Assembly (NCBI RefSeq): GCF_001403795.1
Contig: NZ_CXSU01000005.1
Span: 589,597 to 653,596 of the forward strand
Direction of reading: 5' to 3'
Length of the DNA: 64,000 nucleotides
Origin: Jannaschia donghaensis
GTDB taxonomy: Bacteria > Pseudomonadota > Alphaproteobacteria > Rhodobacterales > Rhodobacteraceae
The notes under the pieces were generated by a model. It was given only the letters and a program-made list of their open reading frames with translations. It was not told the origin of the DNA and did no database searches. This document shows, in pieces, positions 7,009 to 43,319 of this stretch. Within the stretch, counting starts at the first letter, position 1; every line of letters begins with the position of its first letter. Both the position numbers and the translations under genes were made by a program.

Positions 7009-7344
7009 ATGATCGTTCTGCACGGCCTAAAGGCCTGTGATACCTGTCGAAAAGCACTCAAGGCGCTTGCCGCCTCGGGCGCAGACGTGCGCTTGCGCGA
7101 CCTTCGGTCCGACCCGGTCACCGCCGACGAGGTGGCGGCTTGGTCTGCTCATTTCGGCAGCAGCCTGCTCAATACGCGATCAACCACATGGCGCGGTCTG
7201 GATGAAGACACGCGGCGGCAGGATCCGGTCGTCTTGATGACGGCACATCCCGCGCTGATCAAGCGACCGGTGATCCAGACGCCAGCTGGGCTTCACCTGG
7301 GTTGGACACCCGAGACGCGTGCCGCATTGGACGTTGGTGGCTGA
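7009..7344 (+). CDS. ArsC/Spx-family thioredoxin-fold protein
   Basis: This is a 111-residue protein of the arsenate reductase/Spx family. It begins [20 protein letters not shown] with a CxxC pair (Cys10, Cys13) at the end of the first strand. Downstream it has the family's RSTTWRGL and [11 protein letters not shown] segments, the latter with the conserved Lys-Arg-Pro. Such proteins are thiol-disulphide reductases or regulators; arsenate reduction itself is not implied, because no other ars gene is near. The start at 7009 follows a strong GGAGGATC ribosome site. Its stop lies four bases from the end of the convergent 983-residue envelope protein gene. Confidence 0.85.
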
Positions 7345-7347
7345 GCT

Positions 7348-10299
7348 TCAGCTGTTCGGCAGGGTGAGGGCCACGTTCCGTCCGCCCCGCTGATACACAA
7401 CCTGCGTATCGCCGATGGCCGTGACGCGGCCCCGGTCCAACCGGTCGCCAACCTCCACCTTGACGTAACGCCCGTTGGCCAGACGCACCAGGGCGCGGCG
7501 CGCGTTGGGCCGACCGTAGATGCCGATGACGTTGATGTCGCGCAGGCGGATCGCATTTTGTTGTGTGGCCGCGCGCGCAACGCTGCCGCCGGCGGACCGG
7601 ATCGTCTGACTGCTTTGTGCGGCGGCGGGTGTGGGTGCGGGTTGCGTGCTGGCGGCGGCGGGGGTCGCCTGTTCGCGGCGTTGGGTGACGATGCGCGCGG
7701 CGTCCCGTTCGACGGACCGGGGCCGGGTCTGCGGACGCTCCGACGCGGCAAGTGCCAGGGCCGACGTCGGACCGCTGGCGGGGGCCAAGGTGCCCGTTCC
7801 GGCCGTGGCTTGACTGGCCAGCGATGCGACGGCCGCCGCGGCTGCCGCCTCAACGGCGGCGGAGCGTTCGTCCGATGCAGCTGCCGCCGCGACCCGGGCG
7901 GCTTCGGCGATCTGCTCGGCTGCGGCGTCATTCACGGTCTCGGGACGTTGTGCCGGCCGGGTCCGCGTCAGTTCCTCTCGGGTGAAGCCGCTGGCAATCT
8001 GCGGCGTGTCGTCCGCAGGTGCCGGGATGGAACCTGCGTCGGGTGTTGCCGTTTCGGGCCGTTGCACGGGTTGGGTCCGGCGCAACGCGGCGCGTTCCGG
8101 CGTCTCCTCCGGCTCGACCTCGGGGATCGCCGCCTCGGGCGCCGCAAGGGGCGCGAGGGTCGTGCTGGCACGCTGCACGGGCACGACGCCGGGGCGCCCC
8201 GAAAACACGGTATAGCCACCGGGCGCGAGCGTTCCATCCGCGCTGGCCGTCACCAGCGACTCGTCCGGTGCCGCGACGGGGGGGGGACCGCTTTCGACTT
8301 CGGTTTCCGCCACGGCGTCGGACCGGGGCGTTGTGGTACCGTCGACGTCAGGGGCGACAGCGACCGGCGCGTCGGGCGCGGTCTCGGGGGTCGCATCTTG
8401 GGTGACATTCGGGGTGGGCGACGCCGGGCCTTCCTGAACCGGGGCCGGATCGGGTGTCACCGCCGGCGGCAGGGGGCTGGTCTCGGTCTCCGCCAAGGCC
8501 TCGTCGACCGACGCGATGACGACGTCGCCGCCCTGGGGGACCGCGACATCCGGCAGAGCCGGGCCTTCGTCGAATGTGCCGGCTGTTTCGAAGGTTTCGG
8601 GCGCGGCTGTGTCATCGGTCGATACCGTCCCGGTTTCGCCGGTGCCTTCTGCGTCTTCACTACGAAGGGCGGCCACGCCCGCTTCCCCAATTGGGATCGG
8701 CGGCGCGACGATGGCATCGGTATCGGCAAGGCCCGGACCTTCGGTGGAAGTATCCGGCTGCGTCGTCGGCAGCAGGCTTGCGACATCATCATCGATGCGG
8801 GTCGCATCGGTTTCGGCGGTGCCGTTCGGTGCCGGCAAGGGGACGAGGGGGGCCGTCGTTGCGGGGTCGGTCGCCACGACCGTCGCAGCGCCGTTGCCCT
8901 GCAGCACTGACCAGATGGCGACGATTGCCATGAGCGCGAGTAGGGACAGCGTCAAATACAGACCAAGTTTGGCACCGCCGCCCTTGCGTGGGCGCGCGGC
9001 CTTCTCTCGCATCAATCCCGGCAGGGCCAGGGCGGCGGCCTCCAGATCCTGATCTTCCGCGGCAATCGGGACCGGGCCGGCATCTTTTGCGTCGGCCGCC
9101 GTCCGGCGGAACCCGAAGTTCGGCACGACCGGCCTGGGCGTCTTGACGCGCGCGGCGACTTTGGGGGTGGGGGCTGTCTCCGGAGGGTCCTGCGGCGCGG
9201 TCGATGCCTCGACCTTGATCGCGGGTAAGACTGCAATGGGCGAGTCTTTCGCTGGCGGGGCCTGGATCGGTGGCTCCGTCGACGGGTTCTTGAGCACCGT
9301 CGGCGGCACCGGGCCGGACAGACGCGGCGTGATCCGGCCGGACCGGACAGCGCCGGGTGCTGCTTTCGCCGGTGGATCGGCGTGTCGGCGCGTGCTGAAC
9401 GCGGGCAGTGTCGGCTCGGGCCTGCCAGAGTCAAGAAGCGAAAGCGGCGGAGTTTCGGGCGGCAAAGGCGCCGGGATATCGTCGTCGATTGGATCGGGCT
9501 CCGAAGGCTCCGTCGGCTCGATCAGGGCGGCCGGCATGACCGAGGCGGGCGGTGTGGGCGGATCAAGCTGCGCCAGCGTCTCCTCGAATGTCGGCGCGTC
9601 AGGGTCTTGCGCAGGCTCCGCATCGGTTGGGGCTGTATCATCAGGCAGTGCGACCGGAACCGCGACGTCCGAGGCATCGGAGGGCGAAGCGTCGGCGGGT
9701 TCCGCCGCGTTGGTGTCAGGCTCATCGACGCCATCGTCGGACATGGCGGGCGCATTCGGGGCGGGAATGACGTCGAAGCCATCGTCCACATCCAGAACCA
9801 GACGCTCCCCCTTCAGAAGGTCGGCGGCGATACCGGTGGGTCCAAACTGCGGCAGGCCGGGATAGGTCGCATCCGTCGGATTGCCCATCACCGCGATCGG
9901 TTGAAAGCCAAAGCCAGCGGCGAATTCCTCCGCCTCCATCAGCGTTTCGAGGGCGACGACGGCGACCTGCAACCGGTCGCCCTTCTGGACGTAATCGAAA
10001 GCCAGATCCTCGATGTCATAGGGCGTACGCCCGCGCAGAAGCGTCCGGATCGTCACCTTGGGGTCGCGGTCGTCGCGTTCGAGTGAGGTGAACAGAAGCT
10101 GGCTGTCCGGGATGATCAGGATCGTGGTGAAATCCTCACCAACGCGCGCGGCGCATCTTGCCCGCAGACGGGTCAACCCGTCGGCCATGTCGGCGGCGTC
10201 CAGACGCACGATGCCTTCGCGCCACCAGATCCCGTCCCCCGCACGGGACAGCACGGCAATGCCGTCGAGCGAGAGGTCGAGTGCGATCTGTGGTGTCAT
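7348..10299 (-). CDS. Large single-span envelope protein, PilM/GspL-like N-terminus and PilP/GspC-like C-terminus
   Basis: This 983-residue protein has four visible parts. Residues 1-180 look like a folded cytoplasmic domain (IALDLSLDGIAVLSRAG, ILIIPDSQLLF, LLRGRTPYDIEDLAFDYV), reminiscent of the actin-like fold of PilM/GspL. Residues 180-445 are acidic and Pro/Ala/Thr-rich. One membrane helix follows (LYLTLSLLALMAIVAIWSVL, about 447-466). A long disordered Pro/Thr/Ala periplasmic linker contains repeated TRPAQRPET-like units. Residues about 910-983 form a compact domain (INVIGIYGRPNARRALVRLA, VKVEVGDRLDRGRV) like the PilP/GspC homology region. No other type II secretion or type IV pilus gene is nearby. 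The domain resemblance is by eye and moderate; the function is unknown. Confidence 0.75.
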   Translation of the reverse strand: MTPQIALDLSLDGIAVLSRAGDGIWWREGIVRLDAADMADGLTRLRARCAARVGEDFTTILIIPDSQLLFTSLERDDRDPKVTIRTLLRGRTPYDIEDLAFDYVQKGDRLQVAVVALETLMEAEEFAAGFGFQPIAVMGNPTDATYPGLPQFGPTGIAADLLKGERLVLDVDDGFDVIPAPNAPAMSDDGVDEPDTNAAEPADASPSDASDVAVPVALPDDTAPTDAEPAQDPDAPTFEETLAQLDPPTPPASVMPAALIEPTEPSEPDPIDDDIPAPLPPETPPLSLLDSGRPEPTLPAFSTRRHADPPAKAAPGAVRSGRITPRLSGPVPPTVLKNPSTEPPIQAPPAKDSPIAVLPAIKVEASTAPQDPPETAPTPKVAARVKTPRPVVPNFGFRRTAADAKDAGPVPIAAEDQDLEAAALALPGLMREKAARPRKGGGAKLGLYLTLSLLALMAIVAIWSVLQGNGAATVVATDPATTAPLVPLPAPNGTAETDATRIDDDVASLLPTTQPDTSTEGPGLADTDAIVAPPIPIGEAGVAALRSEDAEGTGETGTVSTDDTAAPETFETAGTFDEGPALPDVAVPQGGDVVIASVDEALAETETSPLPPAVTPDPAPVQEGPASPTPNVTQDATPETAPDAPVAVAPDVDGTTTPRSDAVAETEVESGPPPVAAPDESLVTASADGTLAPGGYTVFSGRPGVVPVQRASTTLAPLAAPEAAIPEVEPEETPERAALRRTQPVQRPETATPDAGSIPAPADDTPQIASGFTREELTRTRPAQRPETVNDAAAEQIAEAARVAAAAASDERSAAVEAAAAAAVASLASQATAGTGTLAPASGPTSALALAASERPQTRPRSVERDAARIVTQRREQATPAAASTQPAPTPAAAQSSQTIRSAGGSVARAATQQNAIRLRDINVIGIYGRPNARRALVRLANGRYVKVEVGDRLDRGRVTAIGDTQVVYQRGGRNVALTLPNS

Positions 10300-40117: not shown

Positions 40118-40501
40118 ATGACGACGAAGACGCAGCGGGACCGACGCTCGGAAATGGTCGGGATGATGACGCGGTTCCAATGGGACCTGGCACATGCGGC
40201 GACCCGCGACGCGATGGTGCCGGAGGCGTGGCGCGAGGTGTACGAGAAACGCTCGTCCAAGAAACGCAAGGTGAGCCTGTATCTGGACGAGGACGTCTAC
40301 AAGCTTTTCAAGTCGATGGGCGCGGGGATGGGGCCGCGCATGAACGTGGTCCTGGGCGCATTCGCCCGCGCCCGGCTTGCGGGCCTGCTGGACGGCGAGG
40401 ACTTGGTGGAGGAGGCGCGCGAGAGCTGGATGGGGGTGCCCAAACCCTCGATGGAGGAGTTGCGGGTGTTGCTGGAGAAGGTGGAGGCGGGGAAGCGGTG
40501 A
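40118..40501 (+). CDS. BrnA-like antitoxin/DNA-binding protein without a toxin
   Basis: This 127-residue protein has a basic N-terminus and a middle segment KKRKVSLYLDEDVYKLFKSM followed by MGPRMNVVLGAFARARLAGL. This strand-helix-helix pattern is that of BrnA and other ribbon-helix-helix antitoxins (compare the VSLRLD...INAVLRAY pattern of BrnA). It has an extra C-terminal helix. BrnA normally follows brnT, but no brnT or other toxin gene is adjacent. The ATG at 40118 follows GGAGGGGATGGG. It lies beside the start of the AT-rich nuclease island. Confidence 0.65.
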   Translation: MTTKTQRDRRSEMVGMMTRFQWDLAHAATRDAMVPEAWREVYEKRSSKKRKVSLYLDEDVYKLFKSMGAGMGPRMNVVLGAFARARLAGLLDGEDLVEEARESWMGVPKPSMEELRVLLEKVEAGKR

Positions 40502-40644
40502 GGGGGGTGCGTTTGGTCGTGCTGGGAGGCGGTGGCTTGGTCGAGGAGGCGCGGGCGGTGGGGGTGGGGAAGGTGTGGATGGTGAAGGTGTGGCCGACGG
40601 TGGCGAAGATCATGGCAGTATTGGAGGGGGGGAAGGACTGGTAG
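40498..40644 (+). CDS. Doubtful 48-aa ORF at the island edge
   Basis: A GTG at 40498 overlaps the stop of the BrnA-like gene (GTGA) and opens a 48-codon Val/Gly-rich frame (VRGVRLVVLGGGGLVEEARA ...) that ends at 40644. This is just where the sequence turns AT-rich. It may be a small coupled gene, the remnant of a gene cut by the insertion, or chance. Only the overlap supports it. Confidence 0.25.
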   Translation: MRGVRLVVLGGGGLVEEARAVGVGKVWMVKVWPTVAKIMAVLEGGKDW

Positions 40645-40680: not shown

Positions 40681-42090
40681 TTATCCAAAGATATCTTCAG
40701 GCGGGGGACTCTCATCAAAAGTATCTCCCATAGAGAAGTCAACAACCATTGTGAAGCTTGGATCCTCTTCTTCGAGATCTACTACTCCAATCAAGTTTCT
40801 TACTTTTCTTGTCTTCTCGCCAATGGTGGTGTGCAGTAGTCTATCGTATAATTTCTTTGCAGCCATTTCGTCCAGAGTTACCCAGACAAAGGTGATCATG
40901 TCGAAGGGTCCAGCGCGAACCTCATAATGGGCTTTTTCGAGCAGTCGTCTGTAGCTGTTAAGGGTCCTTTTAGGGTCAAGTACAATTTTAACTTCGAAAC
41001 CAATAGTTTTTGTCTTGATCTTAGCCGTAAAATCTGGAAATCCGCTGCCGAAGTTTGGCTCTATTGATTCAAACCGATTTCGAAGCCAGTGGTAAACTGA
41101 ACGCTCTACTATCTCATGTCTTTGAAAGGCTTTATTTGCAGAGCGAGCACCCTCTACTCGAACACGCGAAACATTTCTTACCTCGTCAAGTGTCTCTTTC
41201 GATACTTCTGCCTTTAAGTGATCTTTCGTGTGTCTTAGGAACCCTTCTGGTTTGTACATGTGAAACGAGGAAATATTCCCCTCAAGAAGAGCTTCTTCAA
41301 CCAATTCCGGCCGCGGCCCGATGGTTTTTGGTCCGTCCATCTTTATTTTCAGCCACCAGTCATCCTTTGCATCATCGGTAACAAAGACGAGTGTTTCAGT
41401 GTCATTTTGTTTCGCATATTCAAGAATTTGATGCCAAATCAGATAGTCTCCATACCGACTTTTGTATTCGATTCCACCGTGAATAAAATGGTCTAATCCG
41501 TCTTTGCTTTTATTTTGATCTAGATATCCTGGCGGTATCTCCTTTGCGTACCGATTCTCGGCTTTCTTATATAGCGCTTCAACAGATTCCTGATTCGGCA
41601 TGGGCGAGCCGACACGGTTCTCAAAAAGTTGTTCGATCTTCTCTTTTAGGGTGTCTTTTCCGTTTAGTGTTTGCTGATTGCCCTCAATTACGTTCAGTTT
41701 TTCGAGGAAGTTTTCTGCGACTTGACTAATGCCCTCAATCAAGGGGGCAGGATCGATTAGAGAATGTCGGCGTTCTAGCTGAAGTTCACCTAGATCGGAT
41801 TGAATTTTTTCCTGCGTTTTTGAGATTAAATTTCGAACTTCTGAGAATCTCTTGTTTTGATCGGCGATGACTATCAAGCGTTTTCTTTGAAACTCAAGGG
41901 CAACATGGTGAGGAATCCAAATGCGATCCGATAGCTTTCCGATAGCATCTAATAGTTGATCGCGCGTTGAAGAGTGATAGCGATACAAGTTCAGAAGGAC
42001 GTTGGTATCAAACACGAACAAGGCTTCATCCCAGACCCTCTTGAAATCGGTTGGTGATCCTGGATCGTACTGCGGAAATAGGCCCTTCAT
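40681..42090 (-). CDS. PIN nuclease fused to a PD-(D/E)XK-type nuclease, AT-rich, putative defence protein
   Basis: The 469-residue protein begins MKGLFPQYDPGSPTDFKRVW. It has a PIN-like domain at residues 20-250 with acidic positions Asp28 (VFDTN), Glu66 (ALEF), Asp215 (RYGDYLIW) and Asp239/Asp240 (FVTDDAKDDWW). This resembles the PIN_8-type family, with a long charged helical insert at about 75-200. A C-terminal domain (about 320-430) has the PD-(D/E)XK pattern Glu329, Asp353 (GFPDF), Glu366 and Lys368 (FEVKI). The start at 42090 has GGAG nine bases upstream. Base composition is clearly AT-rich compared with both flanks, indicating recent gain. Two nucleases in one chain, no partner gene and a foreign origin suggest anti-phage defence. 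This is inference. Confidence 0.8.
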   Translation of the reverse strand: MKGLFPQYDPGSPTDFKRVWDEALFVFDTNVLLNLYRYHSSTRDQLLDAIGKLSDRIWIPHHVALEFQRKRLIVIADQNKRFSEVRNLISKTQEKIQSDLGELQLERRHSLIDPAPLIEGISQVAENFLEKLNVIEGNQQTLNGKDTLKEKIEQLFENRVGSPMPNQESVEALYKKAENRYAKEIPPGYLDQNKSKDGLDHFIHGGIEYKSRYGDYLIWHQILEYAKQNDTETLVFVTDDAKDDWWLKIKMDGPKTIGPRPELVEEALLEGNISSFHMYKPEGFLRHTKDHLKAEVSKETLDEVRNVSRVRVEGARSANKAFQRHEIVERSVYHWLRNRFESIEPNFGSGFPDFTAKIKTKTIGFEVKIVLDPKRTLNSYRRLLEKAHYEVRAGPFDMITFVWVTLDEMAAKKLYDRLLHTTIGEKTRKVRNLIGVVDLEEEDPSFTMVVDFSMGDTFDESPPPEDIFG

Positions 42091-42329: not shown

Positions 42330-43319
42330 TTAGTTCAGCGCGGCATCCGTAATCACACTGGTCCAGGCCCCTTCGGGTGCCGCTGAGATCACCGGGTCCG
42401 ACCCACCGGCCAGCAGGGTGTCGACGGTGCGCTGGTAGTCGGCCTCGTCCAGCGAACCGTCGGACCCGGCGGTCAGTTTGGCGATCTCTTCCATCATGCG
42501 GACCTGCGCGGCCTCGGTCTGGGCGCCGGTCTCGTCGTTGTCGAGGATGATCTCGGCGGCCTCCTGCGGGTTGGCCTCGGCGTATTTCCAACCCTCCATC
42601 GAGGCGCGGACGAAGCGGGTCATCTTGTCGACGAAGACCTCGTCCTCCAGGTTCTCCTCCAGCACCCAGATGCCGTCTTCGAGCGTGGCGACGCCCATGT
42701 CTTCGTATTTGAAGGTGACGAGTTCATCGGGGCTGACGCCGGCGTCCAGCACCTGACCGTATTCGTTGTAGGTCATGGTGGAGATGCAATCGGCCTGGCG
42801 TTGCAGCAGGGGATCGACGTTGAAGCCCTGTTTGAGGACCGTGACGCCGTCGTCGCCGCCATCGGTCGGGATGCCTTCCTGCGACATCCACGACAGGAAG
42901 GGATATTCGTTGCCGAAGAACCAGACGCCGATGGTCTTGCCGCGGAAATCCTGCGGGCCGGTGATGCCGGTGTCCTTCCAGCAGGTGAGCATCAGGCCGG
43001 AGGTTTTGAACGGCTGCGCGATGTTGACGACCGGCAGGCCCTTTTCGCGCGCGGACAGGGCGGAGGGCATCCAGTTGAGCATGGCGTCGGCGCCGCCGCC
43101 GGCCAGGACCTGGGGGGGCGCGATGTCGGGGCCGCCGGGCAGGATGGTGACGTCGAGGCCTTCGGCGTCGTAGAACCCCTTGTCGAGGGCGACGTAGTAG
43201 CCGGCGAACTGCGCCTGGGTGACCCATTGCAGTTGCAGGGTGACGGTGTCGGCGTGGGCATCGGCGAAGGCCGGGGCGGCCAGCGCGGTCAGGGCCGTGG
43301 CGGCGATCAGGTGTTTCAT
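42330..43319 (-). CDS. NMT1/SsuA-type substrate-binding protein, probably for pyrimidines
   Basis: This 329-residue periplasmic binding protein has a signal peptide (MKHLIAATALTALAAPAFAD). The family opening (TVTLQLQWVTQAQFAGYYVA, LDKGFYDAEGLDVTILPGG) is that of NMT1/THI5-like proteins, which bind thiamine precursors, riboflavin or other heterocycles. It is the last gene of an operon with two permeases, an ATPase and pyrimidine-degrading enzymes. The likely ligand is therefore uracil, thymine, a dihydropyrimidine or a hydantoin-like compound. The ligand is inferred from context only. It is closed by a strong terminator. Confidence 0.88.
   Translation of the reverse strand: MKHLIAATALTALAAPAFADAHADTVTLQLQWVTQAQFAGYYVALDKGFYDAEGLDVTILPGGPDIAPPQVLAGGGADAMLNWMPSALSAREKGLPVVNIAQPFKTSGLMLTCWKDTGITGPQDFRGKTIGVWFFGNEYPFLSWMSQEGIPTDGGDDGVTVLKQGFNVDPLLQRQADCISTMTYNEYGQVLDAGVSPDELVTFKYEDMGVATLEDGIWVLEENLEDEVFVDKMTRFVRASMEGWKYAEANPQEAAEIILDNDETGAQTEAAQVRMMEEIAKLTAGSDGSLDEADYQRTVDTLLAGGSDPVISAAPEGAWTSVITDAALN

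Follow-up and report, generated by a model that had tools for sequence, protein, structure and literature searches.

A solitary, AT-rich gene in the window (the whole 64,000-nucleotide stretch of Jannaschia donghaensis DNA analysed here) encodes a protein in which a PIN_8 core is followed by a C-terminal domain of predicted PD-(D/E)XK-type fold. The available data are best accounted for by a conflict gene that stands alone and moves horizontally, most probably an abortive-type anti-phage factor, a reading to which we assign a probability of roughly one half. For the C-terminal domain we favour a role in recognition or docking, because the fold is kept while catalytic residues are lost, and because relatives carry repeats, a UvrD Tudor domain or an IF2_N domain in this place.

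Table 1 Features of the window gene and of the genomic slot that holds it
Feature	Position	Strand	Basis
PIN_8 and C-terminal PD-(D/E)XK-fold protein (predicted), 469 aa	40681..42090	minus	ORF, Pfam, model
PIN_8 domain, residues 24-263 (D28, E66, D215, D240)	41302..42021	minus	Pfam, residue conservation
C-terminal domain, predicted PD-(D/E)XK-type topology, residues 328-455	40726..41109	minus	Model, Foldseek, profile family of 19 tails
D353 ... E366-x-K368 motif	40987..41034	minus	Complete in 5/19 relatives of the domain
BrnA-like gene flanking the slot	40118..40501	plus	BrnA_antitoxin E 2e-7
Degenerate copy of the brnA-like 3' end, edge of the variable slot	40502..40644	plus	Alignment to second brnA fragment of L142
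NMT1/THI5-like substrate-binding protein gene (transporter gene), other slot flank	42330..43319	minus	Pfam NMT1 E 2.2e-37; same-genus orthologues

A solitary gene of deviating composition

The window gene begins with an ATG, with a GGAG 7 nt ahead of it (found by eye), and its frame is open over all 469 residues; as every motif residue is also present, a pseudogene was rejected. The initial annotation had described the gene as AT-rich and transferred-looking, and the composition bears this out: GC content falls to 0.43 in 41001-42000 against about 0.65 around it, and GC3 is 0.42, compared with 0.80-0.90 in four neighbouring ORFs. It is the sole PIN_8 match found in its own 13-contig genome. 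Upstream lie about 240 nt of intergenic DNA, including the terminator-like end of the transporter gene, and no small ORF was found there; the downstream neighbour is the BrnA-like gene, which is convergent with the window gene. No recognised defence island or prophage was seen in the surroundings looked at.

A constant PIN_8 core

The N-terminal half matches PIN_8 (PF18476, 'PIN like domain') from profile position 1 to 227 of 227, with an E-value of 2.6e-63 and 214.4 bits against a curated cut-off of 26.1; the general Pfam PIN model reaches E 0.0016, below its own cut-off. For comparison, 100 ORFs with a core match were kept (nine duplicates dropped, the window protein included, one split gene counted as two pieces), and exclusion of three partial pieces left a core set of 97. 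D28, E66, R180, P187, G188, D191, D215, K242, D244 and E266 are invariant in 97/97 cores and position 240 is D in 93 and E in four (L039, L111, L112, L115), figures that are to be read with the knowledge that most core loci came from a viral-contig scan whose patterns included E66, T238, D240, K242 and D244, so that the constancy of these residues is inflated, while D28 and D215 were absent from the patterns and hence not selected for. Position 239 is D in just 64 of the 97. Of the PIN acidic residues first proposed, D28, E66 and D215 thus stand, and within the pair given as 'Asp239/240' the near-constant D240 is the meaningful one. Because the PIN site hardly varies, the PIN domain is, as judged from these alignments, the putative effector of the window protein.

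Predicted fold of the C-terminal domain

AlphaFold2, given a 47-row alignment (14 rows full length, 33 trimmed to the PIN part), returned a model of the window protein with a mean pLDDT of 89.5 and a pTM of 0.77. The modelled PIN part comprises residues 24-292, and a largely helical stretch separates E66 from D215. From residue 298 follow a long helix, strands at 343-345, 354-358 and 361-369, a helix at 373-393, a strand at 398-405, a further helix and two strands. The first six of these elements have the PD-(D/E)XK order of helix-strand-strand-strand-helix-strand, and the three residues named in the initial annotation are where it had put them, with D353 immediately preceding the second strand and E366 and K368 within the third.

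A Foldseek search against the PDB gave 498 matches at E <= 10, of which not one was as good as E 0.001. PaqCI, a type IIS restriction enzyme, heads the list (E 0.02, probability 0.96), and among the best 50 of the 498 are the small subunit of R.BspD6I, Holliday-junction resolvases (Hjc/Hje), XisH-type and RecU-like proteins, HincII, OkrAI and a bunyavirus polymerase that bears an endonuclease, all of which we take to be PD-(D/E)XK members; the same best 50 also include Argonautes as well as unrelated chains that superpose poorly. The Foldseek viral library matched proteins of the Mrr and restriction-like kinds, along with a phage protein labelled 'PIN like domain'; here too, no match reached E 0.001. 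As these scores are weak, the assignment rests on topology, on the position of the motif and on the make-up of the weak match list. Taken together, the model supports a PD-(D/E)XK-type fold, as a prediction with weak library scores.

Sequence searches did not name the domain. Beyond about residue 330, Pfam, NCBIfam, PADLOC and PHROG gave no credible name at E <= 1, and the proposed PD-(D/E)XK nuclease found no sequence match in Pfam; one NCBIfam match in this part, at E 0.35, was rejected as noise. Sequence searches of the PDB with the protein, the 47-row profile and a C-terminal profile yielded nothing meaningful and no PD-(D/E)XK chain. When 18 members of the domain were compared with Pfam, nine families appeared with one member each, at E 0.055 or worse, and to our knowledge none of the nine is a PD-(D/E)XK family. 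Folding of the C-terminal 170 residues as a single sequence reached a pLDDT of 39. PADLOC 2.0.0 gave one weak match to the window protein, REase_II (E 0.007, residues 44-158), which is probably spurious.

Erosion of the catalytic triad

An iterative profile search from six members, with a threshold of E 0.001 against best shuffled tails of E 1.0, 0.011 and 0.057 in three rounds, collected 20 tails, of which 19 remained after linker trimming (two of them, L029 and L031, look like one sequence). The complete D353/E366/K368 triad occurs in the window protein, L002, L011 and the distant relatives L012 and L014. The other 14 are without one or more of its residues, with the reservation that distant rows may be misaligned: Arg replaces Lys in L109, L041 has the E and K with the Asp perhaps two columns off, and the remaining 12 tails miss one or more residues. 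On a tree of the 97 cores, a minimum of 13 changes is needed for tail class (three states), seven for domain versus not, six for repeats versus not and, among domain rows, three for intact versus eroded; this is a quick tree with SH-aLRT support only and 31 of 92 inner branches open, and its tail classes follow strict cut-offs, so that L022, which joined only untrimmed, was scored as other.

These patterns bear on a dual-nuclease reading, in which the protein would need two activities, the PD-(D/E)XK domain recognising and cleaving the DNA of an invader and the PIN domain cleaving RNA. The initial annotation had seen two nuclease domains in the chain. The PIN core, the predicted PD-(D/E)XK-type fold and a triad present in this copy agree with it, as do the four further proteins with a full triad, two of them distant, and the restriction enzymes at the head of the Foldseek list. 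However, the triad is incomplete in 14 of the 19 relatives and other members are without such a domain, which does not fit the fixed pairing of RNA-cutter and DNA-cutter originally suggested; we consider this reading unlikely. As the triad is eroded and the C-terminal part replaced in many members, the latter is better read as an exchangeable accessory module, which in the window copy may still be catalytic.

Replacement and divergence of tails

Tails diverge or get replaced faster than the core. Among 83 pairs with a core identity of 0.50-0.97, which overlap and whose loci were picked by core similarity, median identity is 0.56 in the core and 0.23 in the tail, and the tail lies below the core in 81; these identities stand without a random baseline, and the tails of L081 and L086 score 0.23 though blastp finds no match between them. 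This last pair (L081:5918-7851 and L086:5869-7769) comes from closely related prophages, with DNA identities of 94% and 92-93% in the flanks and 85.5% in the PIN core. Homology ends 32 nt into the tail and restarts at the last base of the stop codon. A similar DNA gap is found in L058/L053, L082/L089 and L086/L063; the tail proteins still align in the first two (E 1e-24 and E 2e-13) and not in the third. In L047/L045 similarity stops in the tail and returns only far downstream, in L073/L076 the alignment runs through the tail, and the close pairs L075/L092 and L016/L015 have kept their tails. Several tail pairs are diverged homologues rather than replacements. These mixed outcomes indicate that fast divergence and replacement both occur.

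The content of the tails varies as well. In a self-match test for repeats, 10 of 98 tails were positive, including L056 with a short acidic run only and L003 with a weak signal. Near-perfect tandem repeats with units of 12-20 residues fill much of the tail in L025, L026, L040, L062, L091, L113, L018 and L019, and repeat unit and copy number vary between close relatives. Among three unlike members scanned, tail domains were found in two: a PcrA/UvrD Tudor domain in the Cohnella protein (E 6.7e-17) and an IF2_N domain in L112 (E 4.4e-7), with only a sub-threshold zinc-ribbon match in L115. The UvrD Tudor domain contacts RNA polymerase, and IF2_N belongs to a translation factor.

The genomic slot and the neighbourhoods of homologues

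The transporter gene that flanks the window gene is present in 13 of 14 same-genus genomes searched, and no DNA match to the PIN gene was found in the corresponding stretch of 13 same-genus genomes. Three of these 13 (G1039, G1037, G1036) carry the brnA-like gene together with other AT-rich cargo, which in G1039 is a 467-aa AlbA_2 (Schlafen) protein (L142:2304-3707, GC3 0.44) without a PADLOC match and in the other two consists of ORFs without a Pfam match. In G1042 and G1044 the flanks are just about 0.6 and 0.8 kb apart and brnA does not align, the slots of G1034 and G1045 hold other sequence, and in the remaining six genomes the far flank did not align. The degenerate brnA copy at the slot edge aligned to the L142 fragment with a score of 77, compared with 35 or less in 50 shuffles; at the right-hand border, six comparisons scored at or near shuffles. 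Both the window (40118-40644) and G1039 (L142:3630-4296) thus have a BrnA-like gene with no BrnT seen beside it and, after it and next to the cargo, a second, degenerate version of that gene's 3' end. In G1034, the 3' end of the other-flank transporter gene is present twice (L143:5322-5540 and 7198-8990).

With a BrnA-like antitoxin gene adjoining it, the window gene could instead be the toxin of a toxin-antitoxin pair, or a plasmid or prophage maintenance gene, and not a phage sensor. PIN is the fold of VapC toxins, and at five loci the PIN_8 gene is directly preceded by a small ORF from a single family, which looks Cas2/VapD-like (L018:2843-3139, L091:4519-4833, L113:1093-1401, L056:5696-5989 and L051:5508-5918; the L018 copy had no Pfam or PADLOC match). 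The window gene, however, has no such upstream ORF, and the BrnA-like gene lies on the opposite strand and, in G1039, G1037 and G1036, beside unrelated cargo. Because it accompanies other cargo in relatives, it is not taken as a partner, and as an antitoxin it was rejected, being convergent with the PIN gene and not tied to it. We judge the toxin reading quite unlikely, and with the upstream side empty the original description of a single gene without a partner is upheld.

Four of the nearest chromosomal homologues likewise stand alone and are AT-rich (GC 0.42-0.47), with serS, pckA, pnp and ffh as their neighbours; a fifth, L159 (GC 0.39), belongs to an AT-rich stretch that also contains DUF1444 and HNH genes. 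A resolvase gene adjoins the Sulfitobacter homologue. L022 (GC 0.38; other ORFs there 0.61-0.69) is located in a prophage, where it separates genes for tail completion from genes for the baseplate; we take the gene order of this prophage to be P2-like. In ten loci scanned for tRNA genes as insertion sites, the sole tRNA lay about 5 kb away from the homologue, in L156.

Other homologues have company. On Ruegeria and Pseudosulfitobacter plasmids, a short-tailed PIN_8 gene comes after genes for an ATP-binding protein, a helicase and a hypothetical protein; the Ruegeria helicase carries Mrr_cat, and an LmuA-like gene follows PIN_8. L016:1470-8928 and L015 may represent a conflict operon of HATPase protein, ResIII/Mrr_cat helicase, hypothetical protein and PIN_8. 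The Rhizobium homologue is followed by a DUF2971 gene that weakly matches the PADLOC candidate PDC-S31, and the Streptomyces homologue has a type IV-like restriction gene and an AbiU-like one in its vicinity. As some members belong to multi-gene operons, not all PIN_8 proteins act alone.

Sporadic distribution and mobile carriage

The distribution is sporadic, as a transferred defence gene had been expected to show. The window protein was found in 5 of 394 same-family genomes and, class-wide, in 3 of 385, its own included in both; the other four family genomes hold a whole copy (G355), a copy split over two frames (G317), a partial copy where a contig begins (G089) and a fragment that contains a stop (G056). 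The G317 homologue (L156:7634-9024), which lies beside pckA, may owe its two reading frames to decay or to an assembly error. PF18476 was matched at E <= 0.001 in 9 of 295 genomes in the family and 14 of 299 phylum-wide (own genome included), with 7 and 12 passing the cut-off. A scan of genome contigs gave three loci, in Sulfitobacter undariae (53%, residues 1-457), Pseudoalteromonas and Cohnella, the latter two with matches confined to the PIN part.

The family is also carried on mobile elements. Sixty-five plasmid records match, two of which cover 80% of the query, and at least six of the 40 listed among these 65 are shorter than 6 kb. Viral contigs gave one match with the single protein and 97 with a 13-row alignment, of which 80 were kept. 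Annotated phage records held no match to the whole protein at E <= 1e-5, and the tail alone had no match among plasmids at E <= 0.1. Of 5426 E. coli genomes compared at blastn sensitivity, one contained L017, the homologue on an E. coli plasmid. The two homologues adjoining pnp and serS could speak for an RNase with a housekeeping or stress function, but this reading was rejected as highly improbable, given the sporadic presence, a GC content that is low against the host and a different position in each genome.

A proposed model of a fixed nuclease with exchangeable tails

For the preferred reading, an abortive-type anti-phage factor, we infer that RNA is the substrate, that the protein is autoinhibited, that the tail does the sensing and that the gene pays its way through defence. 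Specifically, the PIN_8 domain would be the effector, probably an RNase that is silent in healthy cells, and the C-terminal domain would be the exchangeable part that senses or docks on an invader product. Such sensing would release or direct the PIN domain. In the window copy, DNA is the probable ligand of the PD-(D/E)XK-fold domain, which may also have kept the ability to nick or cleave it.

More speculatively, PIN_8 proteins might be widespread single-protein immune receptors of bacteria, prophages and small plasmids, which combine an unchanging PIN nuclease with a C-terminal recognition module that is hypervariable and can be swapped cassette-like between otherwise closely related elements. 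The window module would then be a captured PD-(D/E)XK nuclease, in most relatives en route from an enzyme to a pure recognition domain. If tails set recognition, the trigger of an immune nuclease that works as a single protein would be directly revealed by natural pairs such as L081/L086. The presence in some conflict proteins of a nuclease fold without an active site would then also make sense, the fold being retained for binding. A cutting domain that stays the same while its tails are exchanged would, moreover, make a natural modular switch.

Comparison with known systems

A published precedent is DS-3, a one-protein PIN defence of E. coli with a split-form PIN ribonuclease domain and no antitoxin, whose catalytic mutants lose defence, according to the accessible portion of the report (PMC13092281). 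By the description given there, the window gene resembles it in being single and without an antitoxin gene, and its PIN_8 domain is likewise split, by a helical stretch; that portion mentions no PD-(D/E)XK domain for DS-3 (PMC13092281), and the window protein has a predicted one. With DS-3 already published as a defence that consists of a single PIN protein (PMC13092281), there is less room to call the window gene a new type of system. A literature search by the PIN_8 family name, with subscription papers and preprints outside its scope, found no defence paper.

The PIN_8 profile itself is wholly covered, and since the Pfam match ends at residue 263, a tail of about 170 residues falls outside the family description. 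With PD-(D/E)XK nucleases (PaqCI, Hjc/Hje, XisH, RecU-like) the window domain shares the predicted order of elements and the placement of the D and E-x-K, but it differs in having no sequence match, a best fold E-value of 0.02 and a triad mostly eroded in its relatives. VapC-type PIN toxins have the PIN fold and acidic site in common with the window protein, which is set apart by its long, largely helical stretch between E66 and D215, its C-terminal tail and the lack of a detected antitoxin gene. Finally, as an analogy only, the arrangement resembles the specificity modules of restriction systems, in which the enzyme is fixed and the recognition part varies between close relatives.
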